This document shows positions 4,501 to 62,830 of a DNA stretch of 64,000 bases, in pieces. The stretch lies in assembly GCF_000522985.1 (NCBI RefSeq), contig NZ_CP007130.1, forward strand, positions 248,001 to 312,000. Reading direction: 5' to 3'. The translations under genes were made by a program, and so were the position numbers. Below the pieces are notes generated by a model. That model made no database searches. It was not told the DNA's origin and saw nothing but the letters and a program-made list of their open reading frames with translations. The number at the start of each line of letters is the position of its first letter. Position 1 is the first letter of the stretch. The stretch is from Gemmatirosa kalamazoonensis (GTDB lineage Bacteria > Gemmatimonadota > Gemmatimonadetes > Gemmatimonadales > Gemmatimonadaceae).

Positions 4501-6390
4501 CCGCACGACCGCGTCGGTGGCCTCGAAGCGCGTCCCCTCGGGCATCCACACGTCCACCACGAACTGCGGCCGCTCGGCGGGTGGGAAGAAGCGCTGCGGA
4601 CGCGTGCCTAACAGCGCGGCGCCGGCCACGACGGACAGCGTCGCGACGGCGAGCGTGAGGCGCTGGCGCGGCATCGCCGCGGCCATCACGCGCGCGTAGG
4701 CGCGCTCCATCACGTCGAGCGGGGAAAACCTCCGGGACTCGGGACTCGGGACTCGGGGCTCGGGTGCGGGTGCGGGTGCGGGTGCGGGTGCGGGCGCGGG
4801 TGCCGTCCGCTCACGAGTCCCGAGTCCCGAGTCCCGAGTCCCGACGCGCGGCCGCAGCCCCGTGCGGATGAACGCGAGGCAGAGGAGCGGCGTGAGGAAC
4901 ATCGCCACGCCGTAGCTGCAGAGCAGCGCCACCGCGACGGTGAACGGGAGCGCGCGGATGAACTCCCCCACCGTGCCGGGCAGGAGGAGCCCGAGCGGGA
5001 GGAAGCTCGCGACGATCGTGAGCGTCGCGCCGAGCACCGGCGTGGCGAGGTCGCTCGCCGCGCGCCACGCCGCGTCGGCGGGCGACACGCCCTCGTCGAG
5101 CAGCTCCACGTAGTTGTCGGCGATGACGATCGCGTCGTCCACCACCATGCCTAACGCGACGACGAGTCCGGCGAACGAGATCTGGTGCAGCTCGATGCCT
5201 AACGCCCGGAGGGCGGCGACCGTGACCGCGACGGTCGCCGGAATGGCGACCGCGGCGATCGTCGCCACGCGCAGCGGCAGGAGCAGCACCGTCACGAGGA
5301 TCACCGACAGCACGGCGATCGTGAACTCGCGCCCGAACGCGAACACGCGCTGGCGCACCTGCGTCGGCTGATCGGCGACCCGGGTGATCTCGAGATCGGG
5401 CGGGAGCAGCGGGCGCACCCGATCCAGCGCGCGCGCGACGTCCTGGCCGAACGCGACGATGTTGCGCCCCTCCTGCATCTCGATCGACATGAGCACCGCG
5501 GGCGAGCCGGCGACGCGCGCCGCGTACGTCGGGTCGACGTAGCGGCGTGTGACCTCCGCGACGTCGCCCAGGCGCACCGGCTGCCCCGTCGGGGCGCCGC
5601 CGAGCTGCACGGCGCGCACCTCCTCCTCCGAGGCGAACTGTCCCTGCGGGCGGAGTCGGAGCTCGGCGCTTCCCACGTCGAGCGCGCCGGCATTCACCAC
5701 GGCGTTGCGGGCGCGCAGCGCGCCGAGCACCTGCGCGGGCGACAGGCCGTACTGCGCGAGCCGCTCGGGACGGACGGTCACGGCCAGCTCCTCCTCCTGC
5801 TCGCCCCAGCGGCGCACCTTGGCGGTGGCCGGCACGGCGCGCACCGCATCCTCGATGCGGTCGAGGAAGGTCCGCAGCTCGCGCGGCCCGTAGCGCCCGT
5901 CCGGGGCGCGCACGGTGAGCAGCACGGCGGCCACGTCGCCGAAGTCGGCGTCGACGATCGGACCGACGACGCCAGGCGGCAGGTCGAGCGCCGCGGTCTC
6001 GTTGAGGTCGTGGCGCAGCATCGCCCAGAACTCGGCGGGCTGCCTAACGCCGTCCTCGAGCTCCACGTTGGCGACGAACAGCCCGGGGCGGCTCGTGGTG
6101 TACGTCTTCGCCTTCTTCACCTCGGCCCGCGCGAAGAGACGGCGCTCGATGCGGCGGGCCACCTGCTGCTCGACCTGCTCCGCCGTCGCACCCGGGTAGA
6201 GCGCGAGCACGAGCCCCTGGCGGATCGTGATCTTCGGATCCTCGCGCCGCGGCATCGTGAACAGCGCGGTGACGCCGAGGGCGACGAGCAGCGACAGGAG
6301 GACGTAGACGACCTGGCGGTTGCGGACGGCGGCGCGGATGACGTTGAAGCGCGCCCCGTGGACGGCCGCGTCGTTAGGCGTGTGCATCAT
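1591..6390 (-). CDS. RND efflux pump fused to a TolC-like outer-membrane factor
   Basis: One continuous 1599-residue frame. Residues 1 to about 1100 are an RND permease: first membrane helix near 30-48, the MPRREDPKITIR motif, porter domains, and the TM4 proton-relay pair in GMVVDDAIVIADN. From about 1140 a hydrophobic signal-like stretch (GALVLAMLGASLAASV) leads into an outer-membrane-factor domain (TLDQALTLAAEHGR, two OEP-type coiled-coil halves) that runs to the end. Pump and outer-membrane factor are normally separate genes. I found no ATG or GTG at the junction that would start a separate OMF with a full signal peptide. The start overlaps the adaptor gene stop by 4 bp (ATGA). An interdomain linker (around residues 515-553) is encoded by a hairpin minisatellite. 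Substrate unknown. Post-translational cleavage at the junction is possible. Confidence 0.9.
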   Translation of the reverse strand: MMHTPNDAAVHGARFNVIRAAVRNRQVVYVLLSLLVALGVTALFTMPRREDPKITIRQGLVLALYPGATAEQVEQQVARRIERRLFARAEVKKAKTYTTSRPGLFVANVELEDGVRQPAEFWAMLRHDLNETAALDLPPGVVGPIVDADFGDVAAVLLTVRAPDGRYGPRELRTFLDRIEDAVRAVPATAKVRRWGEQEEELAVTVRPERLAQYGLSPAQVLGALRARNAVVNAGALDVGSAELRLRPQGQFASEEEVRAVQLGGAPTGQPVRLGDVAEVTRRYVDPTYAARVAGSPAVLMSIEMQEGRNIVAFGQDVARALDRVRPLLPPDLEITRVADQPTQVRQRVFAFGREFTIAVLSVILVTVLLLPLRVATIAAVAIPATVAVTVAALRALGIELHQISFAGLVVALGMVVDDAIVIADNYVELLDEGVSPADAAWRAASDLATPVLGATLTIVASFLPLGLLLPGTVGEFIRALPFTVAVALLCSYGVAMFLTPLLCLAFIRTGLRPRVGTRDSGLGTRERTAPAPAPAPAPAPAPEPRVPSPESRRFSPLDVMERAYARVMAAAMPRQRLTLAVATLSVVAGAALLGTRPQRFFPPAERPQFVVDVWMPEGTRFEATDAVVRRLAARLERTPGVAQVGAFVGGSAPRFYYNVEPEFNVPNFGQLVVNTTDMESTPRLQASLHAPLARLAPEATVLVKQLEQGPALKAPIEIRIAGDDEAALRRLADSAVRVLAATPGSEYVRTDWRDDQPALTLALRRDAAARLGLTEGDLAQQLAAGFDGVPATTLWEGGRRVDVRLRFDSASRRGPADIADAYVTSPTTGARLPLREVADVRADWQASRIVRRNGVRTVSVLAFARPGLLASAVLATARPRLDALTLPPGYTLTYGGETENQGEIQRPMSVALSVSLFGIFLILFVQFRTLRHPLVVMVSIPLALFGSALGLVLTGNPFGFTANLGLTALTGVVVRNAIILVDYALALRAAGVPLERAALDAGRRRLRPIFLTTMAAAVGVVPLIVSGSGLWSPLASVLAVGLVFSMVGTLVVVPILFVRAERAADRRAERRAVAGTEQTAAPVSLPVAAHRRESPLAGSLATGALVLAMLGASLAASVTRAAAQAAPDSPRTIALTLDQALTLAAEHGRATRIAAERVAERTALSRAARADRLPRLEVGGQWLGNTGTQRIAIAQGALGMDAADRPVPYTDRVLAQDGRAAWFGLATVTQPLTPLVRIGAGVRAADAAARRAEAAREGTARDVAFDVERLYLTVLIADRRAAAARLTLAAREARDLDATRAVQTGFAVNADRAASRAGVLDARQAVVAAENAAEDARAELALLLGIDPDAPLTLAEPAPLPRLTVPAADPDDPTTPSGRRADVSAARVVSLGGSTLATDDVDTPVRGDTAVLDAWRQAAHAGSPEVHAAREQVAEAAAGEAAARAAWIPDVALYGQLVRQNLSPIIGRQLWTGGVRFAWTAWDFGRRGRETEAAVARRRAADENLARVDEEVAVAVRRAWRAAVRAERLLDAASAAADARAAAARIASERAGTGLAMVSARAEADAERATADADRYAALLGVRVARAELRRLVGRSVP
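4733..4843. repeat. Hairpin minisatellite inside the RND gene
   Basis: (GGGACTC)n on the left (about 4733-4758) is matched by (GAGTCCC)n on the right (about 4814-4843), so the two arms are reverse complements. The loop (about 4761-4804) is itself a tandem GGGTGC/GGGCGC hexamer array. In frame it encodes an (AP)n linker flanked by GTRDSGLGTRE and RVPSPESRR, between the two halves of the pump. It looks inserted or expanded relative to other RND pumps and can probably change length in 3-bp-compatible steps. Confidence 0.85.
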
Positions 6391-7571
6391 GGCGTGGTCC
6401 TCCCGGTGGAGGCGACGGGACCGGCGACGGGACCGGCGATCGCGGCGACACGCGCGCCGTCGCGCAGGCGCTCCTGGCCGGCGACGATGACCGGGTCACC
6501 CGCCGCGAGCCCGTCGACGATCTCGACCGCGCCGCCGGCGAGCGGCGCACCCACCGTCACGCGGCGCGCCCGCGCCCGCCCCGCGCCCGCGTCGAGCACG
6601 TAGACGCGCGGCGCTCCTTCCGGATCGTGCGCCACCGCCGACACGGGGACGGCGACCACCCGGCTGGAGGCGCCGGTGGCGACGGCCACGCTGGCGACCA
6701 TGCCGGCACGCAGCACGCGGTCCGCGTTAGGCACCACGACCTTCACCGTGTAGGTGCGGCTCGCCGGGTCGGCGGCGACGCCCACGAGCTGCACGCGTCC
6801 CCGCACCGTGCGGCCGAGCGCCGCGAGCTCCACGCGCGCCGGCTGCCCCGGGCGCAGCGCCCCGACGTCCGCTTCCGGCACGCCTACGCGCACCTGCACC
6901 TCGTCGAGGGCGACGAGCGTGAACGCGGTGCCGCCCGGCGAGACCGACGCGCCGATCTCGGTACGCTTCGCCGCGACGACGCCGTCGAACGGCGCCGTCA
7001 GCGTGGCGTCGCGCAGCCGCTTCGCGGCGAGGTCGCGCACCACCTCCGCCTGCCGCGCCGCGGTGAGGAGCCGCTCGTAGTCGTTAGGCGCGATGCTCCC
7101 GGCGTCGAGCAGGGGGCGGGCTCGGCGCAGCTCGTCGGCGGTGCGCTGGGCCTGGAGCTCGGTCTGGCGCAAGGCGAGCGCGTAGTCGGTGGGATCGAGC
7201 GCGGCGAGCACCGCGCCGCGGGTCACGGCATCTCCCTCGTCGACGGCCACGCGCGCGACGCGCCCGCCGACCTGGAACGCGAGATCGGCGGTCGCGCGCG
7301 CCTCGAGCGCGCCGGCGGCCCGCACCTCGACCGGCCGCTCGACCAGCGCGGCCGGCGCGACGCGCACGGCGGTCGTCGCTTCGCTCGCCGCGTGGGATGC
7401 GGAGTCGTCGGCGCGGGCGGCGGCCCCGCATCCGCCGATCGAGAGGAGCGGCAGCGCTGCGACGGCGGCGAGCGCGAGCCGCGACGCCGCGCGCGGCGCC
7501 CGGGCCGGCACGACGCGGACGATGTGTTCGCAGGGGGCAGCGCCCAGGGGCGGACGGTGGGGGTAGCGCAT
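6387..7571 (-). CDS. RND efflux periplasmic adaptor lipoprotein (membrane fusion protein)
   Basis: 394 residues. The N-terminal hydrophobic stretch ends in a lipobox-like LLSIGGC, so the mature protein is probably lipid-anchored. It has the usual adaptor order: biotinyl-lipoyl half motif (GRVARVAVDEGDAVTRGAVL), a helical hairpin (ALRQTELQAQRTADELRRA), second lipoyl half (ATLTAPFDGVVAAKRTEIG), then beta-barrel and membrane-proximal domains. It would link the inner-membrane pump to the outer-membrane channel. It overlaps the RND-OMF fusion by 4 bp, so the two are translationally coupled. The ATG at 7571 leaves a long N-terminus before the lipobox. A downstream GTG would give a more standard signal peptide. 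Confidence 0.9.
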   Translation of the reverse strand: MRYPHRPPLGAAPCEHIVRVVPARAPRAASRLALAAVAALPLLSIGGCGAAARADDSASHAASEATTAVRVAPAALVERPVEVRAAGALEARATADLAFQVGGRVARVAVDEGDAVTRGAVLAALDPTDYALALRQTELQAQRTADELRRARPLLDAGSIAPNDYERLLTAARQAEVVRDLAAKRLRDATLTAPFDGVVAAKRTEIGASVSPGGTAFTLVALDEVQVRVGVPEADVGALRPGQPARVELAALGRTVRGRVQLVGVAADPASRTYTVKVVVPNADRVLRAGMVASVAVATGASSRVVAVPVSAVAHDPEGAPRVYVLDAGAGRARARRVTVGAPLAGGAVEIVDGLAAGDPVIVAGQERLRDGARVAAIAGPVAGPVASTGRTTP

Positions 7572-7641
7572 ACGAGCTCTCCGGGTGGGCGGCAGGCGGC
7601 GGTGCCGGCCGTTCTGGCCGCGCCGCGCACGTGCCGTAACG

Positions 7642-8547: not shown

Positions 8548-9876
8548 ATGTCCCGCTCCGTACCGCTCTCGCGCGCACGTTTCCAACGTGCGCGTACCGC
8601 ATGTGGCCTCCGCTCGGCCCCGCGAATCGTAGCGTCGCTGCTCGGATGGGCGCTTTGTGCGTCCGCAGGCTGCAGCGCCGATCCAGCTGTCGGACCGAAG
8701 GATGCCGGAGTCTCGGGCACACCGGCTCCCCTCGCGTCCGGAGCGACGGTGGTCGCCGGTACGTTCATGAGCTGCGCGCTCGGTAGTCCAGAGGCGCCCG
8801 CGTCGCGCGGCGCAGGGTCCGCAGCATACTGCTGGGGCGATCCCGAGTTCGGTGCGTTAGGCAACCCGGCGGTGACTCGCGACACGGCCCTCCCGGTACC
8901 GATCGCGGGCACGCGTCGGTACGTGGCCTTGGCGACCAACGCCGCGATCGCGTTCACCGGGCCGTCCACCGTGTGCGCGCTGACCGCGGCGGGCGAAGCC
9001 GACTGCTGGGGCAGCAGTCCCGCGGAGCTCATCGGCCCCGCGGAGAGCGGCTGCACCGGGTGCGTCCGTACACCGCGCGCCGTCGCGACGGCGTACCGAT
9101 TCCGCCGCTTGAGCGTCGGGTCGGGGCACATCTGCGGCGTCATCGCGGACTCCACGGCCGTGTGCTGGGGACGCGGGACCGAAGGGCAGCTCGGTAACGG
9201 CGGTCTCGTCACGTCGTCGACGCCGACACCGGTTGCGGGAGGGCTGCGGTTCGCCGACATCGCCGCAGGCGAGTCGTACACGTGCGGGATCACCGCCGCC
9301 GGCGTCGCGTACTGCTGGGGCGCGAACAACCGCGGCCAGCTCGGTGACAGCACGCAGGCGACACGAAGCACACCCGTACGCGTGCGCTTCCCCGGCGCGT
9401 TCCGCGCGATCGACGTCGGATCCCTGACCACGTGTGGCGTGTCGACGACCGGCGCGCCGTTCTGTTGGGGACGCACCGACGGTCGCATCACGGCGACGGA
9501 CAGCGCGTTCTTCTCGCGTACGTCGGTCGCGCCCGTCCCCGTCGAGCTGCCGACCGCCGTGCGCGTCGTGGACATCGGGCTGCTCAACCTGTGCGCGATC
9601 GGACAGGACGACGTGACGCGCTGCTGGGGATGGGGGACGCACGGAGAGACCGGCCCGACCGACGAGACACGATGCCGGCAGGCGTCCGTGGAGCTGTACT
9701 GCTTTCCCGGGCGGATCGACGCGCCGACGCTGACAGAGGTGCACGTCGGCGTCTATCACGCCTGCGGGCGCGCGCGGGACGGTGCGATCTACTGTTGGGG
9801 CGGCAACTTCCATCTGGGTGCCGGCGGGCCGACCTACGCGAACCAGCCCACACCGCAGCGCATCGGCGTGCCGTGA
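8548..9876 (+). CDS. Secreted RCC1-repeat beta-propeller lipoprotein
   Basis: 442 residues. The N-terminus has a hydrophobic stretch ending LCASAGC, a good lipobox, so the protein is probably surface- or periplasm-anchored. The body is a series of RCC1-type repeats with the signature CG(I/V)...YCWG and GQLG (CGITAAGVAYCWGANNRGQLG is one unit in two pieces). This predicts a seven-bladed propeller. Each blade carries paired cysteines, which fits disulfide formation outside the cytoplasm. Bacterial secreted RCC1 proteins of this kind have no assigned role, though binding or scaffolding is likely. The next gene begins 17 bp after the stop. Confidence 0.88.
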   Translation: MSRSVPLSRARFQRARTACGLRSAPRIVASLLGWALCASAGCSADPAVGPKDAGVSGTPAPLASGATVVAGTFMSCALGSPEAPASRGAGSAAYCWGDPEFGALGNPAVTRDTALPVPIAGTRRYVALATNAAIAFTGPSTVCALTAAGEADCWGSSPAELIGPAESGCTGCVRTPRAVATAYRFRRLSVGSGHICGVIADSTAVCWGRGTEGQLGNGGLVTSSTPTPVAGGLRFADIAAGESYTCGITAAGVAYCWGANNRGQLGDSTQATRSTPVRVRFPGAFRAIDVGSLTTCGVSTTGAPFCWGRTDGRITATDSAFFSRTSVAPVPVELPTAVRVVDIGLLNLCAIGQDDVTRCWGWGTHGETGPTDETRCRQASVELYCFPGRIDAPTLTEVHVGVYHACGRARDGAIYCWGGNFHLGAGGPTYANQPTPQRIGVP

Positions 9877-11503: not shown

Positions 11504-11687
11504 GCGGACGCCCGCCCGCGGCCTTATGTTGGGCCCGTCCCCGTTCGCCCCTGAAGCTGCGACGCGATGGTCGCGCTCCCGATCAACGAGAACGCCTAAC
11601 GATCACGAAGCCGTGACCGCCCTGACCGGTGCGCACGAGCGACGCGACACGACACGCGTCGAGGAACCAGCGCGGGACGCGCGCGTG

Positions 11688-12803
11688 ATGCTGCTGCTCG
11701 ATGCGCTGCAGGTGAACGGCCCGTCCCGGCTCGTCGTCGCACTCGCGACGTCGCTGCGCGACCGCGGAATGGACGTACGCGTGGCGTATCTCGGGCTTGG
11801 CGACTGGCCGGAGGGGGCCGAGACGCTGCGGGCGCGCCGCATTCCAGTGCTCGACCTCGGGTTGCGCAGTCTGCTGGATCCTCGTCCCTGCCTCCGGCTC
11901 GCGGCACATCTGCGTCGCGACGCGGTCCGCGTGCTTCATACGCACAACCGGTACGCGCACCTCGTGGGGCGACCGGCGGCGGCGATCGCCCGGTGCGGCC
12001 TCGTGTCGACCGATCACTGGATCGTCGAGACGGACCTCGGTGTTCGCGGATGGATCCGGCGGCGGCTGGACGACATGAGCGTGCGGGCGTTCCGCGGCGA
12101 GATGGTGATGGTCTCGCACGCGCAGCACGCCGAGCACGCACGGCGCGGGCGGCTGCGATCGTCCCACACGGAGATCGTCCACAACGGCGTCGATGCCGAC
12201 GCGTTCCAACCGGACGCGGACGCCCGTCACCGCGTTCGCGCCCGACTGGGCATCGACGACGCGACCCCGGTGCTCATGTCGGTGGCCGTGCTGCGGCCGG
12301 GAAAGGGACACGAGCACCTGCTCAAGGCCATGCGCCGGCTCCATGACCGGGTGCCCAGGGCGCGACTCGTCATCGTGGGTGACGGAAGCGAGCGCGTTAG
12401 GCTCCAGCAGGCTGCGTCCGCACTCGCGTTGGACGCGGTCGTCCACTTCCTCGGCACGCGCCTCGACGTCGCCGAGCTGCTCGCGGCGGCCGATGCGTAC
12501 GTGCATCCGTCACAGTTCGAGAGCTTCCCGACGAGCGTCATGGAAGCGATGGCGACGGCGCTGCCGGTCGTGGCGACCGCCGTCGGCGGCGTGCCGGAGC
12601 TCATTCGGCACGACGACACGGGCCTGCTGGTGCCGCCCGGGGAGCCGGACGCACTGGCGAGCGCCATGGAGCACGTGCTCCGTCCCGCGGTGGCGGCGCG
12701 GCTCGGCGCAGCGGCGCGATCCTGGGTCGAGACCCACGCCTCGCACGACGCGTGGGTCGAACGGCACCGGGCGCTCTATCGACGCGTCGCCGCCGCGCGA
12801 TAG
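11688..12803 (+). CDS. GT4-family glycosyltransferase
   Basis: 371 residues from the ATG at 11688. A GTG at 11613 in the same frame would add 25 hydrophilic residues. I prefer 11688 because the first beta strand (MLLLDALQVNGPSRLVVALA) begins there, as in other GT4 enzymes. The second Rossmann domain has a conserved strand/loop (VLMSVAVLRPGKGHEHLLKA), and the nucleotide-sugar EX7E motif is visible in FESFPTSVMEAMATALPVV. It would transfer a sugar from an activated donor to a lipid or glycan acceptor at the cytoplasmic membrane face. It follows the kinase-like fusion gene by 184 bp. Confidence 0.88.
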   Translation: MLLLDALQVNGPSRLVVALATSLRDRGMDVRVAYLGLGDWPEGAETLRARRIPVLDLGLRSLLDPRPCLRLAAHLRRDAVRVLHTHNRYAHLVGRPAAAIARCGLVSTDHWIVETDLGVRGWIRRRLDDMSVRAFRGEMVMVSHAQHAEHARRGRLRSSHTEIVHNGVDADAFQPDADARHRVRARLGIDDATPVLMSVAVLRPGKGHEHLLKAMRRLHDRVPRARLVIVGDGSERVRLQQAASALALDAVVHFLGTRLDVAELLAAADAYVHPSQFESFPTSVMEAMATALPVVATAVGGVPELIRHDDTGLLVPPGEPDALASAMEHVLRPAVAARLGAAARSWVETHASHDAWVERHRALYRRVAAAR

Positions 12804-13961: not shown

Positions 13962-14267
13962 GGGCAGATCCTCGGGATGGCCCGCGGTGAGGCGCCTAAC
14001 TTGTGCCTCATGCCGACAGACCGCAAGGTCGGCACTGCGGCGACTGGGCCCAGTCGATCACAGTGACTGTCGACAGTCGACGCGATTGTGCCGCGCATTG
14101 GCCGCAGTCGCTGCAACGGCCTAACGAGACACGTCGGATCCGTGCGCTCGGGCGACATGCGCGCGTCCGCCCACATGTCGCGTCCCCTCACCTGGGGCTA
14201 GCTTACCGGCACGGCGCGACGTCGCGATGACCGTCGCAGCCGCCACCCTGTCCGGAGAGATGTCCGC
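13962..14267. promoter_or_regulatory. Divergent intergenic region with three inverted repeats
   Basis: No gene seen in these 306 bp. It holds a 7-bp stem TGCCGAC/GTCGGCA (14011-14034), a perfect 16-bp palindrome CGACTGGGCCCAGTCG (14041-14056) and a perfect 12-bp palindrome ACTGTCGACAGT (14066-14077), all within 67 bp. It also has two copies of the CCTAAC word (13995, 14120). Regulator binding sites for the divergent genes are the likely meaning. Confidence 0.5.
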
Positions 14268-18483: not shown

Positions 18484-18521
18484 CGCGGTCGAGGCGCCAC
18501 CACGCCCCGACGCCAGGCCGC

Positions 18522-20224: not shown

Positions 20225-20266
20225 CGCGGGCGGCGCGCCGCACCGCCATCGCGTTCCGCGAGGTGC

Positions 20267-25212: not shown

Positions 25213-25241
25213 AGCGGCCTCGCGCGGCCTAACGAATCCGG

Positions 25242-48335: not shown

Positions 48336-48372
48336 ATCCACTCCCGATTCCGATTCCTTCACGCTGCGCGCG
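48336..48372 (-). promoter_or_regulatory. Conserved leader of TPR-CHAT gene 3
   Basis: Reading toward the gene: CGCGCGCAGCGT, 6 bases, ATCGGAATCGGGAG, 5 bases, ATG. The blocks (48361-48372 and 48341-48354) match the leader of TPR-CHAT 1 exactly, including the 6-base spacer and the distance to the ATG. CHAT 2 lacks it because it is coupled to CHAT 3. Confidence 0.6.
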
Positions 48373-49628: not shown

Positions 49629-50452
49629 GTGCGTGGCAGCGCCTCATGCACGTCGTCCGCGAAGCGGTCACCGTACCGCTCGATCACTGCACGCCGGAGC
49701 CTCTTGAGCGCGTCGAAGCGACGCTTGCGCAGCGCGACCTCGCTGCGTCCCGTCGCCACGGTCAGCTCCGCGTACGAGCGCCCCTCGACGATCTGCTGCT
49801 GCAGTAGCTCCCAGTCCTCGGGCTTCAGCACCTCGCTGGCGACGGAGGCGAGCGCGCGTGCCATGCGCTTCAACTGCATGTCGCGCTCGCTCGTCATCAC
49901 CTCGCCGTCGGCGGTCCAGCCGCCCTCGAGGCCGCGCACCTCGCCGTCGCGCGCCTCGAGCGGAACATGCTCGGGCTTCGCGTCGGCCGCGCGCATCCAG
50001 TTCTTGAGCGCGTTCGCGCTCACGGTGGCGCCCCACGTCCTCAGCGACGACTGCCCGCGGTACGTCGCGAGCTTGTCCCACAGGCGCGCGAACACCAGCT
50101 CGACGAGGTCGGCCTCGTTCCATCCGAGGCCGTAGGCGTAGATCCGCTTCAGCACCACGGGCTCGAGGCGGCTCCGGATCTCGACGAGCGCCGACTCGCT
50201 TCCCTGCTGCGCCTTGAGCGCGAGCGCGAGATCGGCCGCGTGGGCGGGCGGCGCCTCGCGCAAGAACAGGTCGAATCGCGCGCGCCGTCGCCGCGCACGC
50301 CGCGCCAGTTCGGCCGCCACCGTGCCCAGACGCGCGTCGACACGTGCGACGGCGGCGGACGCGCCGCGCAGCGCGCCGAACACGCGCACGACGGCCGCGA
50401 AGAAGGTCTCGTCCGCCGAGTCGATGAAAGGTGCGGCGTTAGGCTCGCCCAT
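49625..50452 (-). CDS. ECF-like sigma-70 family factor with an N-terminal extension
   Basis: 275 residues from the ATG at 50452. Residues 1 to about 75 form a helical, Arg-rich extension. Region 2 is recognisable at about 90-155 (DLVELVFARLWDKLATYRG, QSSLRTWGATVSANALKNWM). An acidic linker follows, and region 4 lies at about 210-262 (LKPEDWELLQQQIVEGRSY, AELTVATGRSEVALRKRRFD). It would direct RNA polymerase to a specific regulon, perhaps including the CHAT leaders. It heads an operon with subtilase and GAF genes (4-bp overlaps), which could be its release machinery. The start region overlaps the preceding gene by 14 bp. Confidence 0.83.
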   Translation of the reverse strand: MGEPNAAPFIDSADETFFAAVVRVFGALRGASAAVARVDARLGTVAAELARRARRRRARFDLFLREAPPAHAADLALALKAQQGSESALVEIRSRLEPVVLKRIYAYGLGWNEADLVELVFARLWDKLATYRGQSSLRTWGATVSANALKNWMRAADAKPEHVPLEARDGEVRGLEGGWTADGEVMTSERDMQLKRMARALASVASEVLKPEDWELLQQQIVEGRSYAELTVATGRSEVALRKRRFDALKRLRRAVIERYGDRFADDVHEALPRT

Positions 50453-52063: not shown

Positions 52064-54546
52064 GCCCCGCGCGCCGCCACGCCGGCCGTCTCCTGCTCCG
52101 CGTGGCGGCGCTCGCACTCGGCGCGCGCGCCGCACACGCGCAGTCGCGCCATGCGCTGCTGATCGGCATCAATCAGTACGAGTACGCCGCGCCCGTCCTC
52201 ACGTCGTGGCAGCGCCACGTGCAGCCGGCGGTCGCCGCGTGGCGAGCGCGGTTACAGGGCAGCGCGCCGGCGACTGCGGCGCGCCTCACCGGCGAGCCCG
52301 CGCCGCACCGGCAGCTCGTCGGAGATCTCGACGGTGCGGTGAACGACGCGACGGCGATGGCCGAAGTGCTCCAGCATAGATATCAGTTCGCACCGCCGCG
52401 GCTCCTGCTCAATGAGCACGCAACGCGCGACTCGATCCTCGCCGCGCTGCGCCAGCTCGCCGACGACGCGCGGCCGGGCGATGTGATCGTGTTCTACTAC
52501 GCCGGCCACGGCTCGCAGCGCGTGAACTCGCTCAGCACCCGCAAGCTGAACCACCTCGATCAGACCATCGTCCCGGCCGACGCGAACGCGGGCCAGTTCG
52601 ACATCCGCGACATGGAGCTTGCCGCGGCGTTCGATCGCGTGCTCGATCGCATCGGCCCGACGGGCACGCTGACACTCATCTTCGACAGCTGCCACAGCGG
52701 CGCGGTCACGCGCGGCGAACCGAGTCCGTCGAAGGTACGGTGGGCAGCCGCCGACCCGCGCGACGCGGCCGACTCCGTCGCCGTACCGCCGCCGGAGGAT
52801 CGCGGCGCGCTGTTCCTCGCCGCGGCGCAGGACTTCGAGCCGTCGAGCGAGGTGACGACGTCCGACATCGAGGGGCGGCCACGCGCGCACGGCGCGTTCA
52901 CCGCGGCGCTCCTGCGCGTCATGCGCTCGGCGCCCCCGAACGAGCCGGCGATGCGGGTGTTCGAGCGCGCCCGCGCGATCCTGCAGCAGGACGGCCTCGC
53001 GCAGAACCCGGTGATCCGCGGCACCGAGTCCGACCGCCGCCGCTCGCTGTTCGGCACGTATCACGGCGCGATCGCGGGCGGCGTCACCGCGCCGGTGCTG
53101 CGCGTCGAGCACGACACGGTGCGGCTGCAGGCGGGCCTCGCCGTCGGTCTCGCGCCGGGCGCGGAGCTGCGACTCGTCGACTCGGCGCCTAACGCGCCGG
53201 TGCGGCTGAAGGTCGTCGCGGTGCACGGACTCGCCGAGAGCGACGCGGTGGCCATCGCCGGCTCGCCAGGTCGCCTCTCGCCCGGCACGCTCTTCGTGGT
53301 CGACCGATGGACGTCCGCGAGCGGTCCGGCGCTGCGCGTGTGGATCCCGGCCGGCCGCGAGCCGGCGGCGCTGACGCGCGACGTCGCCGCGCTCGGCGCG
53401 CTCCGCCACGGTTCGGTCGCGGAGTGGACCGACGATCCCACGACGCTGCCCGACGACGGACGGCCGTTGTACGTGGTGCGCTACGAGCCGGACGGCTGGC
53501 ATCTCGTCACACCGGCCGGCGCGACGATGCGGCTCGCCACTGCAACAGCGGACGAGGTGGGCCGCGCGATCGCCGCGGCGGAGTCCGCCGCGACCTCGGT
53601 GCGCGAGCGCGAGCGTACCGCGCTGCGTGCCGCCGGCGCCCAGGCCGATGGCATCCTGCCGCCCGCGGGCGTACGGCCACGCGTGGCGGTGCTCGTGCCG
53701 CCGCCGACACCGCTGCGCACCAGTCTCCGGCTCGGACGCGGAACGCCGAACGACGCCGTCGAGCCGGTCGACGACCCCGCGGCGGCCGACTACCTGCTCG
53801 CCGGTCGGCTCGGCGACGGTGGCGTCAGCTACGCGTGGCTGCGGCCTAACGGCAGCGCGGCGTCGCAGCGGCGCTCGAGTCTTCCGCCGCGCACGCTGTG
53901 GGTGGGCTCCGGCGCGCTCGACGTCGCGGCCGACTCACTCACCGAGCTCGCGACGCGCCTGGCGCGGCTGCGCGGCTGGCTCACGCTCGCGGCGCCGCCG
54001 GACACCGGCGAGTCTCGGTTCCCGTATCGGCTCGCCCTTCGAAATCGAGCGACCGGCGCGCTCCGCGACTCCGGCGAGACGCACGACGGGGAGAGCTTCG
54101 ACCTCGTGCTGCAGCGCGACTCGACGATCCCGGTCGACCGCATTCCCGCGCGCTGGGTGTACGTGCTGGCGATCGACAGCTACGGACGCGGCATCCCGCT
54201 CTTCCCTTCGGCGGGGCTCGGCGGTAACCGGGTGCCGATGGACTCCGCGGGCACCGACATCGCGCCGCCGGTGATCACGCTGCCGCGCCGCGCGCCCATC
54301 CGCATCGTGCCGCCGTACGGCGTCGACACGTTCGTCCTGCTGACGACGGCGGAGGCGATCGACCCCGACGTGCTGCGCTTCGACGGCGTACGCGGAGCGT
54401 CGAGCGACGCGGCGGGCGGAACACTCTCACGGCTCCTCGCCCGCGTCGGGCGCACGCGCGGCGTGGACGACGACCCCGTGCCGTCGTCGTGGTCGGTGCA
54501 GCGGCTAGCGCTGCGCAGCGGGCCGGCGACGACGGCGAAGCCGTGA
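52060..54546 (+). CDS. Secreted caspase-family (C14) protease with DUF4384-like C-terminus
   Basis: 828 residues. The GTG at 52060 overlaps the previous stop, which sets the start. The signal peptide is GRLLLRVAALALGARAAHA. The caspase p20-type domain (about 28-340) starts RHALLIGINQYEYAAP and carries His in VFYYAGHGSQRVNS (about 149) and Cys in LIFDSCHSGAVTRG (about 210), so the dyad is intact. It is followed by AAQDFEPSSEV and HGAFTAALLRVM, as in metacaspase-like and paracaspase enzymes. Several beta domains follow, and residues about 650-780 (ARWVYVLAIDSYGRGIPLFP) match the DUF4384 pattern often fused to bacterial caspases. Secretion places it in the same compartment as the three CHAT proteases. 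Confidence 0.93.
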   Translation: MSPARRHAGRLLLRVAALALGARAAHAQSRHALLIGINQYEYAAPVLTSWQRHVQPAVAAWRARLQGSAPATAARLTGEPAPHRQLVGDLDGAVNDATAMAEVLQHRYQFAPPRLLLNEHATRDSILAALRQLADDARPGDVIVFYYAGHGSQRVNSLSTRKLNHLDQTIVPADANAGQFDIRDMELAAAFDRVLDRIGPTGTLTLIFDSCHSGAVTRGEPSPSKVRWAAADPRDAADSVAVPPPEDRGALFLAAAQDFEPSSEVTTSDIEGRPRAHGAFTAALLRVMRSAPPNEPAMRVFERARAILQQDGLAQNPVIRGTESDRRRSLFGTYHGAIAGGVTAPVLRVEHDTVRLQAGLAVGLAPGAELRLVDSAPNAPVRLKVVAVHGLAESDAVAIAGSPGRLSPGTLFVVDRWTSASGPALRVWIPAGREPAALTRDVAALGALRHGSVAEWTDDPTTLPDDGRPLYVVRYEPDGWHLVTPAGATMRLATATADEVGRAIAAAESAATSVRERERTALRAAGAQADGILPPAGVRPRVAVLVPPPTPLRTSLRLGRGTPNDAVEPVDDPAAADYLLAGRLGDGGVSYAWLRPNGSAASQRRSSLPPRTLWVGSGALDVAADSLTELATRLARLRGWLTLAAPPDTGESRFPYRLALRNRATGALRDSGETHDGESFDLVLQRDSTIPVDRIPARWVYVLAIDSYGRGIPLFPSAGLGGNRVPMDSAGTDIAPPVITLPRRAPIRIVPPYGVDTFVLLTTAEAIDPDVLRFDGVRGASSDAAGGTLSRLLARVGRTRGVDDDPVPSSWSVQRLALRSGPATTAKP

Positions 54547-54981
54547 CGACCCGCTCCGCGAGCATTCCCTCACACATCGCCCACGACCAGCGACGAGCCG
54601 GCTGCCGTGACACCGCCGCGATGTTCCCGCCGTCTACCGTGGCCATCGTGGCCTCGGCGAGGCCGGCGGCGATCTCGGATTCGGTCTCGGACCTGCCTAC
54701 CGCGGCCAGCCCCGCGCCAGGTACCGGCAGCACGAAGGCGAGTGCCTCGGGACCGTCGCGCAGGCTCGCCACCAGACGGCATGTAGCGACCGTCGCCTGA
54801 CGCTGTTCGGCGTGGGCCGGGCCAAGGTGTGCGATCCGTCGGCGCCATTGAGCGATGAGCTACGCGCGAAACTCCGCGCTATGCCTCGCTGCCTAACGAT
54901 GCGCGACGGACGACCAGTGACGCCCGGCGCGACCCGGGCGCCTCCGATCGCCATCCACCGTCGGCCGTGCATCGCGCGCAT
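54547..54981 (-). pseudogene. Probably frameshifted minus-strand gene of unknown function
   Basis: An ATG at 54981 has a perfect AAGGAGG Shine-Dalgarno and lies 76 bp downstream of the shared promoter motif at 55057-55078, so a gene clearly starts here. The first frame (MRAMHGRRWMAIGGARVAPG) loses coding character after about 45 codons. Strong coding bias then moves to another frame, which reads VASLRDGPEALAFVLPVPGA and GLAEATMATVDGGNIAAVSR. That frame runs on into the antisense of the caspase gene. The simplest reading is a frameshift plus a lost 3' end. A plus-strand frame (54812-55030) is a weaker alternative. No family recognised. Confidence 0.4.
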
Positions 54982-55103: not shown

Positions 55104-55328
55104 GTGTCCATCTTCGGCCCGTTCCACCATCCGACCGCGGCCCCGCCTAACGGCAGCCTGTATCGCAGGACAGGCACACTGCAACTCGGCCCGCTCCGGC
55201 TCGAAGGCGGAGCCGAGGTCCGGCAGGCAGCCTCGCGGGAGCTCGGTGGCACCGTCGCGCCGTCCACCGCGGTGGTCGTCACCACGAAGCCGGCGGCCGC
55301 CGGTGTGCGTCCCGACGCCGGCGCGTGA
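55104..55328 (+). CDS. Possible small protein, unknown function
   Basis: 74 codons from a GTG at 55104, ending at a TGA. Third codon positions are GC-rich (about 84% by hand count), which fits coding, and the product is beta-like (GSLYRRTGTLQLGPLRLEGG, GTVAPSTAVVVTTKPAAAGV). There is no Shine-Dalgarno and no family match that I know. A copy of the GCCTAACG word encodes Pro-Asn here. The stretch from 55329 to 55408 holds a 9-bp tandem GAGCCTCGA repeat (near 55359-55389) and nothing else seen. Confidence 0.3.
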   Translation: MSIFGPFHHPTAAPPNGSLYRRTGTLQLGPLRLEGGAEVRQAASRELGGTVAPSTAVVVTTKPAAAGVRPDAGA

Positions 55329-55944: not shown

Positions 55945-55946
55945 CT

Positions 55947-56084: not shown

Positions 56085-56128
56085 CGTGCGGCACGCCTAA
56101 CGCGCCGCACGCCTGACGAGCCCCGCGC

Positions 56129-56335
56129 CTAACGCAGCGCGACGCCGAGCAGGATGGCGGCGCCGACGACGTTCGCGAGCACCAGGAGCGCGCGCAGCAG
56201 CACACGGAGCCAGCGTCGCGGATCCTCCGCGGACGGGGCGGGCGGGCCCAGGATCTCCGACGGGCGCATCACCTCCATCGCCATGGCTCGCGGGAGCGCG
56301 CGTTCGGGTGCGCCCGCGTGGACCCGTGTGCTCAC
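56129..56335 (-). CDS. Small single-pass membrane protein
   Basis: 68 residues from a GTG at 56335 that overlaps the previous stop (GTGA). An ATG at 56284 would also leave the membrane part intact. The C-terminal half is one membrane helix (RALLVLANVVGAAILLGVAL) preceded by a basic stretch (EDPRRWLRVLLR), which suggests N-in topology. It is the last gene of the small operon 57053 > 56451 > 56335. Its TAG stop is formed inside a GCCTAACG copy (CGT-TAG). Function unknown. Confidence 0.6.
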   Translation of the reverse strand: MSTRVHAGAPERALPRAMAMEVMRPSEILGPPAPSAEDPRRWLRVLLRALLVLANVVGAAILLGVALR

Positions 56336-57543: not shown

Positions 57544-57789
57544 CTACGGCTGCGCCATGAGGGCCTCGAGATCGACCGGTGCGAGCGCGCGCCAGTGGAG
57601 CGGGAAGTTCCACGCGCGGCGCACCAGCCCTTCCGAGAGGAAGATGAGGCACCGCGCGCCACGCGAGCCCGGCACGAGCGCGGCGTCGCACTCCACCACG
57701 CGCCACGCGATGCCGTGGGCGTCGACGAGGTGCACGGCGTCGGGCGCGTTCCAGAGGGGCGCGCCTAACGGGTCTCGGGCAACGCTCAC
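57544..57789 (-). CDS. Small Trp-rich protein coupled to a degenerate receiver
   Basis: 81 residues. The GTG at 57789 overlaps the upstream receiver stop (GTGA). Product: DPLGAPLWNAPDAVHLVDAH, GIAWRVVECDAALVPGSRGA, RCLIFLSEGLVRRAWNFPLH and a helical WRALAPVDLEALM. The pattern of a short beta sheet ending in a W-x-x-L-x-x-x-x-L-E-A-L helix looks like small single-domain proteins I associate with Gemmatimonadota genomes, but I cannot name a family. Co-translation with the receiver-like protein suggests a shared job. Confidence 0.6.
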   Translation of the reverse strand: MSVARDPLGAPLWNAPDAVHLVDAHGIAWRVVECDAALVPGSRGARCLIFLSEGLVRRAWNFPLHWRALAPVDLEALMAQP

Positions 57790-58771: not shown

Positions 58772-58991
58772 CGCAGTGCTTCCTCCGGTGCGGGGATCGG
58801 GCGGGTCCGTATCGGCGTCGTCTGCCACACGGTACGGGTGTCGCGGCGGGCCAGCATGAGTCAGGTGACCCCGCCGCGCGCGACAGTGTGGCGGTGCCGA
58901 TCAGCAATACGCCGCACGGCCCGTATTCGCGTCACCGCGACGCGCGCAGCCGCCTAACGGCGCGGGCAACGACGCAGGACGCCCGCTCCGG

Positions 58992-61511
58992 TCACTCGTA
59001 TCGCAGCGCCCGAATCGGCTCCACGGTCGCGGCCCGGCGCGCGGGCAGATAGCCCGCCCCGTACGCCACGAGCGCGAGCAGGGCCGCCGCGAGCCCGATC
59101 GACAGCGGGTCCCAGCCGGGGAGCCCGAACAGGAGCGACTTCGCCGCCGTGCCGAGGGCGAGCGCCGCCGCGACGCCCACGACGCCGCCGGCGAACGTCA
59201 TGCGCGTCACCTGGCGCAGCACCATCCCGCGGACCTGGGCGCGGCTCGCCCCGAGCGCCATGCGCACGCCGATCTCGCGCGTCCGCTGCGCGATCGTGTA
59301 CGCCAGCACGCCGTACAGCCCGATCGCCGCGAGCAGCGTCGCGAGCACCGCGAACGCGACGGCGAGAACGCTCACGAGGCGGTCGAGGTAGGTGTTCTCG
59401 CGCACCTGCTGCGGCAGCGTCTTGAGGTTCTCGACCGGCAGGTTCGGGTCGAGCGACTGCACGATGCGCGGAATCGCTCGCAGCACCTGCTCGGACGTGA
59501 GCGTCGTCCGCACGTAGTAGTTCATCTCGCCGATGGCGCTGTCCTGCCGGAACGGGAGGAGGAACGTCGGCGGCGTCTCGCCCTTGACCTCGGAGTACTT
59601 CGCGTCGCGCATCAGCCCGACGATCTCGATGTCGAGCCGGTGATCGGCGTCGCTGCCGATGTTGCCCATGGCCATGTGCCGGCCGACCGCCTGCCGTCCG
59701 AGGCCGAACTTCCGCGCGAACGTCTCGTTGACGATCGCGACCTTCGGGGCGCCCGGGCCATCCGCGGCCGTGAATGCCCGCCCGGCGAGCAGCGCGCTGC
59801 CTAACGTCTGGAAGTAGCCCGCGCCGACCTGGTTGTAGCGCGCGTTGGCGTCGGTGTCGGCGTCGCGGTGGAATCCCTCGACGGCGACCTCGGTGCCCCA
59901 GTTGCTGCCCGCGAGCAGCGGCACGCGCGCCGCCGTGACGGCCGCGACGCCCGGCTGGGCCGCGAGCTCCTGCTCCAGCCGCTCGAACAACGCCGCCGAC
60001 CGCGCGTTCGCGTAGCCGTTGAGCTGCGGCGAGATCCCGAACGTCACGACGCGCTCCGTCGCGAGACCGAGGTCGACGCGGCTCACGTTCACGAGACTGC
60101 GGATGAACAGTCCGGCGCAGACGAGCAGCGTCATCGCGAGCGCGATCTGCGTCGTCACGAGCGACGTGCGGAACCGCGTCGCCGCCCTCGCGCCGGAGAG
60201 CTGCCCCGCGCTCGACCGGATCGTGCCGATGAGGCCCGGCCGCGTGCTGTGCAGCGCGGGGAACAGGCCGAACAGCACCGCCGTGCATAGCGCGACGAGC
60301 GCGGCGAACGCCACGACCGTCGGGTCGAGCCGCGTGTGAACCGTCTGGGCGTCGTCGGCGGGCAGCAGCGCGGTGATCCCGCGGAGCGTCCAGTACGCGA
60401 CTCCGAGACCGAGCGCGCCGCCCGCCGCGCCTAACGCCAGCGACTCCGTCAGCAGCTGCCGCACGAGCGCACCGCGCCCGGCGCCCAACGAGAGCCGCAC
60501 GGCCATCTCCCCCGCGCGCCGCGCGCCGCGCGCGAGCAGCAGGTTCGCGATGTTCGCGCACGCGATGAGCAGCACGATGCCCGTGATGGCGAACAGGAGC
60601 AGCAGCGGCGCCCTGGCGTCGGTCGGCTGCGCGCTCTGCCCCCGCGCGCCCGGCTTGACGACGATCTGCTTCGTGCGGAAGCGCGCCATCGTCGCCGCGC
60701 TCATGCCCTTCTGCAGCGGCGCCTCGACGTCGGCGAGGATCGGCCGGTACGCGGCGGTCAAGCCGCGCGCCGCCTGCTCCGCCGTCGCCCCCGGCGCGAG
60801 ACGGCCGAAGACGTAGAGCCAGTACGCGCGGCGGTTGTCGACGACCTTCCACCCCGGCGCCATCAGCTCGCGCATCGCGAGCGGCACGAAGACGTCCGGG
60901 TGCATGCCGAGCGTCGTCCCCTCGAACCCGCGCGGCGCGACGCCGACGATGGTCATCGCCTGCCCGTTGATGACGACGATCTGGCCGAGCACGCCCCGGT
61001 CGTGGCCGAGCCGGGTGTTCCAGTAGGCGTAGCTCAACACGGCGAGCGGGTGTGCGCCCGGCGTCTCGTCGTCCGCCGCCCCGAACAGCCGGCCCAGCGC
61101 CGGCGTGAGACCGAGGGTCGGAAAGTACGAGCCCGACACCAGCATCCCCGTGCCGCTCCGCGTCTCCCCGCGGAACGCGAGGTTCGCCCCGAAGTCGCGA
61201 TGCCCCGCGAGCCCGCTCAAGACGGCCCGCGTCGCCGGGGCGCGCTCGAGATCGCGGAACATCGGGTAGCTGAACACGGCGTCGCAGCTGCCCGCCATGC
61301 CGCACGCCACCGCGCCGGGCTTCGGTCCCGGCGCGACCAGGTTCACGAGCCGCGCCGGATCGCGTACGGGCAGCGGCCGGAGCAGCAGCTGGTCGAACAG
61401 CGAGAAGATCGCCGCGTTCGCACCGATGCCGAGGGCGAGCGACAGGATGGCGACTGCGGTGACGAACGGCGTCTGGCGGAGCGCGCGGAGCGCGAGCCTC
61501 GGGCTGGTCAT
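58992..61511 (-). CDS. FtsX/MacB-type ABC permease (ADOP family)
   Basis: 839 residues. The ATG at 61511 overlaps the stop of the upstream esterase by 4 bp (ATGA). It starts at RLALRALRQTPFVTAVAILS followed by the conserved LALGIGANAAIFSLFDQLLL. MacB-type periplasmic regions (for example FSYPMFRDLERAPATRAVLS) separate two FtsX modules with RAGEMAVRLSLGAGRG and RTREIGVRMALGASRAQ, and it ends VEPIRALRYE. Like the permease at 15.9-18.5 kb it is an orphan duplicated permease without an ATPase nearby, and the two are paralogues. Coupling to an esterase/TPR gene is unusual. The substrate is unknown. Confidence 0.9.
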   Translation of the reverse strand: MTSPRLALRALRQTPFVTAVAILSLALGIGANAAIFSLFDQLLLRPLPVRDPARLVNLVAPGPKPGAVACGMAGSCDAVFSYPMFRDLERAPATRAVLSGLAGHRDFGANLAFRGETRSGTGMLVSGSYFPTLGLTPALGRLFGAADDETPGAHPLAVLSYAYWNTRLGHDRGVLGQIVVINGQAMTIVGVAPRGFEGTTLGMHPDVFVPLAMRELMAPGWKVVDNRRAYWLYVFGRLAPGATAEQAARGLTAAYRPILADVEAPLQKGMSAATMARFRTKQIVVKPGARGQSAQPTDARAPLLLLFAITGIVLLIACANIANLLLARGARRAGEMAVRLSLGAGRGALVRQLLTESLALGAAGGALGLGVAYWTLRGITALLPADDAQTVHTRLDPTVVAFAALVALCTAVLFGLFPALHSTRPGLIGTIRSSAGQLSGARAATRFRTSLVTTQIALAMTLLVCAGLFIRSLVNVSRVDLGLATERVVTFGISPQLNGYANARSAALFERLEQELAAQPGVAAVTAARVPLLAGSNWGTEVAVEGFHRDADTDANARYNQVGAGYFQTLGSALLAGRAFTAADGPGAPKVAIVNETFARKFGLGRQAVGRHMAMGNIGSDADHRLDIEIVGLMRDAKYSEVKGETPPTFLLPFRQDSAIGEMNYYVRTTLTSEQVLRAIPRIVQSLDPNLPVENLKTLPQQVRENTYLDRLVSVLAVAFAVLATLLAAIGLYGVLAYTIAQRTREIGVRMALGASRAQVRGMVLRQVTRMTFAGGVVGVAAALALGTAAKSLLFGLPGWDPLSIGLAAALLALVAYGAGYLPARRAATVEPIRALRYE

Positions 61512-62830
61512 GGAGCGCTCACGGAATCGGGAGCGATGACGAACGGGTTGCGACGAAGCGTACGGTCCTCGCGCACCGACGGCCATGCGCCGGTGACGAG
61601 CCGCGCGCGCCGCCGCGGCGCGCGTCGCTGCAGGAGCGTGTCGAGGGTCGAGCGCGCGTCGCCCGGCAGCTCCGTCGGCGACGACGGCGCCATCGCGATC
61701 GCGCGCCGGAGCTGCGCGATCGCGCCGGTCGTGTCGCCGAGCGCGAGATGGCCCGCCGCGAGGCGCGCCACGGCGCGCGCCGAGCCGGGATGAAGCGTCA
61801 CGTTCCTCCGCAGCACGAGCAGCGCGACGCGCGGCTGCTTCAGCGTGTTCGACGCGACGCGGGCGAGACGGTTGACGTCCGGCTCCGGCAGTCGCTCGGA
61901 CAGCAGGAGCGTGCGCGCGGAGTCGGCATACATCGCCTCCGAGGCCGCGAGCGCGCGCACGACCGCCGCGGAGTCGGCGCGCTCGTCGAGCGTGGCGATG
62001 GGCAGCGACTGCGTCGCCACCGGCGCGAAGACGAAGCGCAGGCCGTCGGGGAGCGCCGACAGTGGCACCAGCGCGTGCCAGTCGTCGGGGTAGCGGCGGT
62101 GCGCGAACGCGACGTTAGGCGGTCGGATCGAGTCGAGGTGCGATGCGAAGCGGCGCGTGGTCGTGTCGATGTCGGCGTCGCCGAGGCCGTGATGTCCGGC
62201 GAAGATGCGCTGCCGCGCCGACGATCGCGCGATCGCGTCCGCGTACTCGACGGCGGGACGTCGGTCGTTGTACCAGATCGCCGGGTCCATGGCGATCACA
62301 CCCTGGTAGCGTCCGGGCCACGTCGCCGCCGAGTAGAGCGCGAACACGCCGCCCGCGGAGAAGCCCGCGAGGACCGTCGTCGGCAGCGTGCGGTAGCGCG
62401 CCCGGACGGCCGGCAGGGCCTCGTCGAAGAGGAAACGCGCGAACGCGTCCGCCCCGCCGCCGGTGGGAAACTCCGCCACCGACGAGCCGGTGGGGGCGGG
62501 CAGCATGTCGTGCAGCCGGTCCGCGCCGTTCTCCACGCCGACGACGATCATCGGCGGCACGCCGTCGGCGTTCTCGGCCAGATACGCGGCCTGCGCGATG
62601 GCGAGCCGGAACATCGCGCGGTCCTCGGCGTCGAGCACGACGAGCACCGCGTAGCGGTCGCTCCCTCGCTCGTAGGCGTCGGGCACCGCCACGTCGATCG
62701 TCCGGCGACCGAGCGCACGCGAGGCGATGCGGATCGGAACCCACGGCTCGACGCGCTCGCGCTGGGCGGCCGCCGGCGACGCGAGCGCGAGTCCGATGAG
62801 GAACGACGGCAGGTGAGTGACGCGCGGCAT
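61508..62830 (-). CDS. Secreted esterase (Fes/IroE-like) with C-terminal TPR segment
   Basis: 440 residues with a signal peptide (LPSFLIGLALASPAAA). The alpha/beta-hydrolase part (about 25-270) follows the enterochelin-esterase/esterase-D layout: RYAVLVVLDAEDRAMFRLAI, MIVVGVENGADRLHDMLPAP, nucleophile elbow TTVLAGFSAGGVFALYSA, and a late His in RYPDDWHALVPLSAL. The C-terminal 130 residues contain TPR-like helices (LHPGSARAVARLAAGHLALG). It would hydrolyse ester bonds outside the cytoplasm. Translational coupling to the ADOP permease is clear. A siderophore substrate is possible but not shown. Confidence 0.87.
   Translation of the reverse strand: MPRVTHLPSFLIGLALASPAAAQRERVEPWVPIRIASRALGRRTIDVAVPDAYERGSDRYAVLVVLDAEDRAMFRLAIAQAAYLAENADGVPPMIVVGVENGADRLHDMLPAPTGSSVAEFPTGGGADAFARFLFDEALPAVRARYRTLPTTVLAGFSAGGVFALYSAATWPGRYQGVIAMDPAIWYNDRRPAVEYADAIARSSARQRIFAGHHGLGDADIDTTTRRFASHLDSIRPPNVAFAHRRYPDDWHALVPLSALPDGLRFVFAPVATQSLPIATLDERADSAAVVRALAASEAMYADSARTLLLSERLPEPDVNRLARVASNTLKQPRVALLVLRRNVTLHPGSARAVARLAAGHLALGDTTGAIAQLRRAIAMAPSSPTELPGDARSTLDTLLQRRAPRRRARLVTGAWPSVREDRTLRRNPFVIAPDSVSAP

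Follow-up and report, generated by a model that had tools for sequence, protein, structure and literature searches.

As the 8-mer GCCTAACG is scattered through a 64-kb stretch of the genome of Gemmatirosa kalamazoonensis (here called the window, meaning the whole 64,000 nucleotides analysed, G000:C4:248001-312000, with G000 as handle for the window's own genome), we were interested in what such a word does and why it recurs. An earlier note on this DNA had reported 49 full copies and had offered a DNA uptake signal, a nucleoid or replication-associated site and a modification target as candidates. Our analysis suggests that GCCTAACG probably works like a DNA uptake sequence (DUS) of natural transformation, with uptake as the likely cause of its abundance, and it adds three aspects that the earlier note lacked, namely a patchy phylogeny, a second phylum and identity with the integron core.

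Density, spacing and coding placement of the word

The exact count in the window is indeed 49, with 34 copies on the forward and 15 on the reverse strand. One hundred dinucleotide shuffles of the window gave a mean of 0.67 and a maximum of 3 copies, so the roughly 2 copies expected by the earlier note were too many. Its list of CCTAAC six-mers was correct in the total (53) and in 52 of 53 starts, the slip being 34971 (true start 34961), and the four it had called incomplete 8-mers (4607, 13995, 27079 and 27984) are absent from the GCCTAACG matches. By over-representation ratio under the dinucleotide model GCCTAACG is the top 8-mer of the window, the runners-up being mostly its overlaps. The proposed comparison with Markov expectation gave a divided answer: dinucleotide and codon-shuffle models single the word out, but under a maximal-order Markov model it is unranked among the top 8-mers of the window, because its 7-mers occur almost only inside GCCTAACG.

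G000 comprises 7,479,215 bases in replicons of 5,311,527, 1,106,233, 1,040,503 and 20,952; the published replicons of G. kalamazoonensis KBS708 measure 5,312, 1,106, 1,041 and 21 kb (PMC3974934), and the window lies on a megaplasmid. The genome-wide count suggested in the earlier note led to 4,469 copies (2,194 forward and 2,275 reverse), one per 1.67 kb, compared with 133 copies (63 + 70) of the reversed word, and is therefore not near expectation. The reversed word is a generous control, because GCCTAACG, unlike the control, holds stop codons in two of six frames. Distribution was followed in the window together with 27 further pieces of 20 kb (604 kb in total, 371 copies), and the following results refer to this sample. 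Counts in the 27 pieces had a variance close to their mean (11.7 vs 11.9), and the word was present on all four replicons, the mobile element included. Spacing was more even than in 500 random placements, with more gaps of 800-1200 bp (71 observed vs 47±6 random), and fewer of 3-5 kb (16 vs 34±5) and of 50-300 bp (28 vs about 50). In 306 of the 371 copies the base just before the word is a pyrimidine. Adjacent copies less than 160 bp apart were in direct orientation in 16 of 18 cases, and some intergenic triplets (L012, L032) showed periods of 11-16 bp.

Both strands carried the word about equally (184/187), with no significant strand heterogeneity between pieces (p 0.08), and the 34/15 split of the window is a local skew in a balanced genome. 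This balance disfavours the replication-oriented site considered in the earlier note. It also speaks against a Chi-like recombination hotspot word read by an enzyme of the RecBCD/AddAB type, which would likewise be an abundant octamer in coding DNA; we regard this as very improbable, as the excess is far stronger than for known Chi and the sister genera described below are nearly without the word, no substitute having been seen in small samples of them. Even spacing on both strands of all four replicons, mobile element included, is in turn what one might see if a nucleoid, repair or segregation protein bound the word genome-wide, with weak selection and not uptake keeping it at thousands of sites, in the manner of HIP1. 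HIP1 (GCGATCGC) of cyanobacteria is a palindromic genome-wide octamer of debated function; GCCTAACG resembles it as a dense genome-wide octamer in genes, but is not palindromic and not reported as methylated. On balance such a binding site appears possible but rather unlikely.

Non-palindromic words can be methylated as well, and 5-methylcytosine is hard to see by single-molecule real-time (SMRT) sequencing. The SMRT methylome of G. kalamazoonensis, however, gives RGATCY, ATGCAC and CCAGN7TCA as the only modified motifs, and GCCTAACG is not among them (PMC3974934), which makes the modification target of the earlier note the least credible reading, with hardly any probability left to it.

Our own gene finder, which relies on 3-periodicity, predicted 477 genes in the sample (88% coding); 293 of the sampled copies lay inside genes, 51 between them and 27 at their edges. 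Codon shuffling led to an in-gene expectation of 3.6 copies (largest of 20 shuffles 7; repeat runs 4.4 and 4.8), and GCCTAACG was again the top 8-mer by ratio. In 174 of the 293 in-gene copies the word is read as xCG-TTA-GGC, and these account for 174 of 212 TTA codons (213 in a rerun), indicating that TTA is used mostly to spell GCCTAACG; the word is placed in codons at a codon-usage cost (TTA-GGC). Its two orientations on the coding strand are unequal (187 vs 106), and one orientation is also described as the commoner for known uptake sequences in the available part of an earlier study (PMC2346458). Complete genes of at least 450 bp lacked a copy in 207 of 397 cases (Poisson 211), and no position bias within genes was detected (Kolmogorov-Smirnov p 0.37).

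The word is also spelled strictly. Against the 293 perfect copies in G000 genes (about 4 expected), the 24 one-mismatch words together reached 385 (about 289 expected). Most of this excess lies in GCCCAACG (69 vs 17), GCCTAACA (25 vs 2) and GCCGAACG (171 vs 97, where the background is high). Changes at positions 1, 2 and 7 occurred once in all (about 14 expected). Such a sharp consensus would suit a protein binding site, too.

Patchy occurrence among relatives and in a second phylum

Copies were counted in 59 relatives and in 295 genomes of the phylum (overlapping sets). In family f1, to which G000 belongs, 10 genera are strongly enriched with 709 to 4,469 copies per genome, and genera sampled with several genomes agree (g26 2/2, g29 3/3). 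Genus g47 of family f2 holds 181-779 copies in 5/5 genomes. Mildly high counts were obtained for G141 (172) and G040 (168), and g40 is not uniform, as two other, less complete g40 genomes hold 11 and 22 copies. Among the 295 genomes of the phylum, none outside the order exceeded 67 copies. Near relatives of enriched genera are almost without the word (26 copies in G015, 16 in G031, 34 in G014). On an rpoB tree of 27 of 30 genomes (G003, G027 and G053 were left out, as rpoB was not obtained) the trait, set at 500 copies or more, requires at least seven changes. A single clade of the 12 enriched f1 genomes, a group named after the first tree had been seen, was rejected (approximately unbiased test, p-AU 4e-65). 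The enrichment is patchy, polyphyletic and nearly absent from sister genera, and these seven changes would be odd for a core chromosome function of the kind that a nucleoid, repair or segregation protein provides.

The rpoB alignment shows how the word is accommodated. It occurs at 12 columns, five of which are common to several genera (169, 645, 923, 1246 and 1595), and G000 itself has 4 copies in this gene. At columns 645, 923, 1246 and 1595 the word is found in 4-5 genera each; leucine is encoded by CTN there in all 9 low-copy f1 genomes of the set. At 7 of the 12 columns nearly every genome has the residues that the word spells (Leu-Gly or Gly-Leu-Thr), indicating mostly synonymous change at these; at the other five the residues vary. 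Enriched genomes moreover differ in strictness in a dialect-like manner, as seen from the counts of ACCTAACG relative to GCCTAACG: 24/4469 in G000, 36/3754 in G020 and 39/2415 in G030 as strict genomes, and 346/834 in G011, 721/3749 in G027, 581/3411 in G019 and 458/1765 in G169 as lenient ones. For the genomes of middle density, decay is an alternative to such a dialect.

A scan for three clustered copies, which was no survey of phyla, returned at least 120 stretches. In 50 of the 120 stretches listed (L233-L352), from diverse genomes, the matches were heptamer tandem repeats, (GCCTAAC)n, with Halomonas (L254), Thioalkalivibrio (L243) and Desulfacinum (L259) as examples among the matches listed. 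Two metagenome-assembled genomes (MAGs) were of a different kind. The one titled Chthoniobacterales bacterium MGR_bin418 (G303) has 5,157 copies in 4.3 Mb and 256 of the reversed word, with A directly after 29/29 copies in 16 kb (GCCTAACGA), another dialect-like feature; the one titled Gemmatimonadaceae CRAIB_MAG39 (G305) has 3,099 copies in 3.2 Mb. The other 9 genomes pursued among the matches listed held 21-95 copies. The phylum of G303 shares no genome with the sets from the phylum of the window, so the groups differ; its name, Verrucomicrobiota, is taken from the record title. Among 387 genomes of that phylum, G303 included, one further genome was strongly enriched (G479, 2,139 copies), eight held 100-250 copies and the others fewer than 100. 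A single MAG may contain a binning error, yet two genomes of that phylum are enriched.

Transformation machinery and the integron core

ComEC was found in 32/35, DprA in 17/17 and a type IV pilin signature in 17/17 of the genomes searched, G000 included, so that transformation is possible. A study of soil populations associates ComEC loci with low linkage in soil bacteria, Gemmatimonadetes among those sampled, and infers competence from ComEC, which makes competence plausible there as far as the available part of that report goes (PMC7305173). As enriched and non-enriched genera do not differ in this machinery, a receptor would have to make the difference. ComEC itself was considered as the moved specificity gene and rejected, since its tree largely follows the rpoB tree.

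Uptake is favoured because density, strand balance, even spacing, coding placement, dialects and competence genes fit it, and of the three candidates in the earlier note it is the best supported, although short of proof. GCCTAACG, in G000 preferably with a pyrimidine just before it, would be the recognition word, and a surface receptor of the natural-transformation machinery would prefer DNA that bears it. Imported conspecific fragments would then replace resident alleles, and, where sites permit, word-bearing alleles would build up to about one per 1-2 kb. The patchy pattern may reflect gain or loss of the receptor.

Several observations weigh against uptake. The competence and pilus genes that the earlier note had proposed to look for are present but not diagnostic, as ComEC, DprA and pilins are equally common in non-enriched genera, and the ComEC tree does not group the enriched genera (7 changes). 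Among 26 pilin-like proteins in stretches from 8 genomes, an incomplete sample, no cluster sorts the enriched genomes, so the receptor was not found, a result that would also agree with a binding site unrelated to uptake. No uptake assay for Gemmatimonadota was found in the literature searched. Known DUS favour housekeeping genes; rpoB of G000 does have 4 copies of GCCTAACG, but the poorest 20-kb stretch of the sample (L029, 3 copies) carries housekeeping genes. The word is no rarer in the mobile element C1 (12 copies per 15 kb). Neisseria terminators carry inverted DUS pairs, but close pairs of GCCTAACG are nearly all direct (16/18). In Haemophilus, perfect copies outnumber one-mismatch copies according to the available part of the report (PMC1626085), and in G000 genes the raw ratio is 293 to 385, a comparison affected by the background in the latter figure (about 289 expected by codon shuffling). 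The middle-density genomes G169 and G011 have about as many excess one-mismatch copies as perfect ones. Decay may account for some of these, but ACCTAACG and GCCTGACG rather than C-to-T changes at positions 2, 3 and 7 make up most of the excess, a pattern closer to leniency than to decay after loss of drive. Finally, no substitute word comparable to GCCTAACG was seen in 24-90 kb samples of G021, G015, G022, G001, G023, G018, G012 and G035, or in 20, 8 and 4 kb of G003, G009 and G031 (the top words of G003 resemble a local repeat), although samples this small could miss a weaker word; non-enriched genera are therefore not plainly other dialects.

A different origin of the word was considered in view of its sequence, as GCCTAACG equals GCCTAAC/GTTAGGC, the classic integron core, plus one base. 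G000 has an integron of its own, with IntI at C3:856836-857774 (-) and an array in L094 (G000:C3:838001-858000) of 20 attC-like hairpin sites, with a length of 95-98 bp in the 14 sites listed. Paired R''/R' boxes closing an imperfect hairpin are present inside the array. The exact 8-mer stands at 7/20 ends on each side and the variant GTCTAACG at 6/20 ends, and 14 of the 19 GCCTAACG copies in this 20-kb stretch sit at attC-like ends. The array lies 3' of the IntI gene; the usual integron layout is the reverse. In the non-enriched G035, copies cluster in one-strand arrays with attC-like hairpins, and in its stretch L099 CGTTAGGC is found at 21/24 ends on one side and GCCTAACA at 19/24 on the other.

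The integron integrase might accordingly use the scattered copies for docking (as attG-like sites) or be diverted by them as decoys. In favour of this, the integron and the exact 8-mer at its attC-like ends occur in the same genome, IntI is above the cut-off in 12/13 enriched f1 genomes and in G303 and G479, the two strongly enriched members of the second phylum (the copy of G479 reads through one stop), and a random enriched 8-mer would rarely contain the exact core (about 8 in 32,896, an arithmetic made after the fact). IntI is, however, nearly as common in non-enriched f1 genomes (8/10) and therefore does not sort the enriched ones; it is not above the cut-off in G305, G151, G053 and G141, which are enriched to some degree, and matches are only partial in G027, G054 and G129. 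The scattered copies share the seven bases of the attC core but lack a partner arm (of the 371, a single pair stands head to head within 160 bp) and are single half-sites, not attC. In addition, GTCTAACG is missing from the sampled G000 genes (0 vs 2.9 expected), and strand exchange by an integrase inserts cassettes and would not rewrite synonymous codons. Taken together, we consider an integron function of the scattered copies improbable. The identity with the core is real; a causal role for it is conceivable.

Uptake and integron may also be connected through a horizontally mobile uptake specificity. A receptor gene aimed at the attC core would have moved between genera and phyla (Gemmatimonadota, Verrucomicrobiota), its benefit coming first from cassette import, and biased uptake would then have written GCCTAACG thousands of times per host genome. 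We put this forward as a doubtful, speculative extension.

Copies in the window and comparison with known systems

Using our own gene finder, 38 of the 49 window copies lie within predicted genes, 9 are intergenic and 2 are at gene edges (Table 1). Five of the copies are not independent, because they occupy homologous places of neighbouring paralogues (35207/43204/46062 and 35339/46194; 66-73 of 89 flanking bases identical). Three large genes lie in this part of the window (34487-48362), with homologous flanks of the word; Pfam scanning covered the two outer ones, both TPR-CHAT (34487-37636 and 45342-48362); the middle one is 42481-45342. A search with 20 kb of the window gave no match in a plasmid collection from which its own genome was possibly excluded.

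Elsewhere in G000, word-free gaps of about 17 and 12 kb are seen at L029 and L098 (G000:C2:3750001-3790000), covering housekeeping genes (Der, GpsA, PlsY, DapF and CTP synthase among those scanned). Foreign DNA was rejected as explanation for the low density of L029, as the 10 scanned of 19 predicted proteins are mostly housekeeping. The 21-kb element (L096, G000:C1) consists of a 14,997-bp unit, partly repeated, with genes for a tyrosine integrase and a DUF5906/VapE-like protein; the chromosome record begins with the same unit (L012, G000:C2:1-about 15 kb). The genome paper describes the 21-kb element as high-copy and perhaps a phage (PMC3974934).

Table 1. Exact copies of GCCTAACG in the window, with genes from our own gene finder (strand in brackets) and domain names from Pfam.
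Copy	Strand	Gene	Remark
5149..5156	+	1591-6390 (-)	AcrB-type RND pump, OEP domain
5197..5204	+	1591-6390 (-)	
6042..6049	+	1591-6390 (-)	
6372..6379	-	1591-6390 (-)	
6725..6732	-	6387-7511 (-)	HlyD-type
7082..7089	-	6387-7511 (-)	
8855..8862	-	8749-9876 (+)	
11594..11601	+	intergenic	
12395..12402	-	11685-12803 (+)	
14119..14126	+	intergenic	
16165..16172	+	15907-18483 (-)	MacB/FtsX permease
16588..16595	+	15907-18483 (-)	
17389..17396	+	15907-18483 (-)	
18520..18527	+	18522-19319 (-)	end of gene
20265..20272	+	20267-21358 (-)	end of gene
20905..20912	-	20267-21358 (-)	
22144..22151	+	21355-22770 (-)	FAD-linked oxidase
22330..22337	+	21355-22770 (-)	
25227..25234	+	intergenic	
26212..26219	+	26035-26988 (-)	
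26710..26717	-	26035-26988 (-)	
27616..27623	-	27219-27665 (+)	
31008..31015	-	30214-31236 (-)	
32134..32141	+	31384-34074 (-)	protein kinase domain
34960..34967	+	34487-37636 (-)	TPR-CHAT
35207..35214	+	34487-37636 (-)	homologous place to 43204, 46062
35339..35346	+	34487-37636 (-)	homologous place to 46194
36965..36972	+	34487-37636 (-)	
40005..40012	-	39743-42517 (+)	CHASE2/cyclase
40737..40744	-	39743-42517 (+)	
42364..42371	+	39743-42517 (+)	
42538..42545	-	42481-45342 (-)	
43204..43211	+	42481-45342 (-)	
46062..46069	+	45342-48362 (-)	TPR-CHAT
46194..46201	+	45342-48362 (-)	
48538..48545	+	48397-48879 (-)	
49442..49449	-	48876-49628 (-)	
50437..50444	-	49625-50452 (-)	
53187..53194	+	52060-54546 (+)	
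53844..53851	+	52060-54546 (+)	
54891..54898	+	intergenic	
55145..55152	+	intergenic	
56095..56102	+	intergenic	
56127..56134	+	intergenic	32 bp past copy at 56095
57763..57770	+	intergenic	
58952..58959	+	intergenic	
59799..59806	+	58992-61511 (-)	MacB/FtsX permease
60429..60436	+	58992-61511 (-)	
62113..62120	-	61508-62830 (-)	

To our knowledge, Neisseriaceae and Pasteurellaceae are the only families with established uptake sequences. The uptake signal sequence (USS) of the latter is dispersed on both strands and fairly evenly, as is GCCTAACG. From the available part of the same report on Haemophilus, the USS is likewise a short, non-palindromic and highly over-represented word with hundreds of copies per Mb, has two clade-specific types, and occurs as the 8-mer AAGTGCGG in 1,687 copies in 1.8 Mb (63-fold; PMC1626085); the density of GCCTAACG in G000 is of this order. 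GCCTAACG differs from the USS in being unrelated in sequence, in belonging to a host of another phylum with 73-74% GC, in its near absence from sister genera and in having, by raw count, fewer perfect than one-mismatch copies in G000 genes. With the DUS of Neisseriaceae, for which the minor pilin ComP is the receptor, it has thousands of copies and dialects in common, but it measures 8-9 bases compared with 10-12 for DUS, and no ComP-like receptor was identified. A further likeness lies in the strict inner bases of DUS, peripheral ones mattering less, according to the available parts of two studies (PMC3630211, PMC3868556).

In the open literature searched, no paper joining 'DNA uptake sequence' with Gemmatimonad was found, and none joining integron, uptake sequence and attC. 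The one paper found to mention both uptake sequences and Verrucomicrobia is a review on detecting gene transfer, and among papers containing the literal word GCCTAACG the titles listed are unrelated. GCCTAACG would be an uptake-like word with dialects, present in two phyla, for the first of which (Gemmatimonadota) that literature names none. If the word arose separately and was gained or lost several times between close genera, comparisons for finding the receptor would be at hand, namely G000 and G030 with G015, G020 with G031, and G019 with G014. Through the match to the integron core, a connection of cassette capture with transformation becomes testable.

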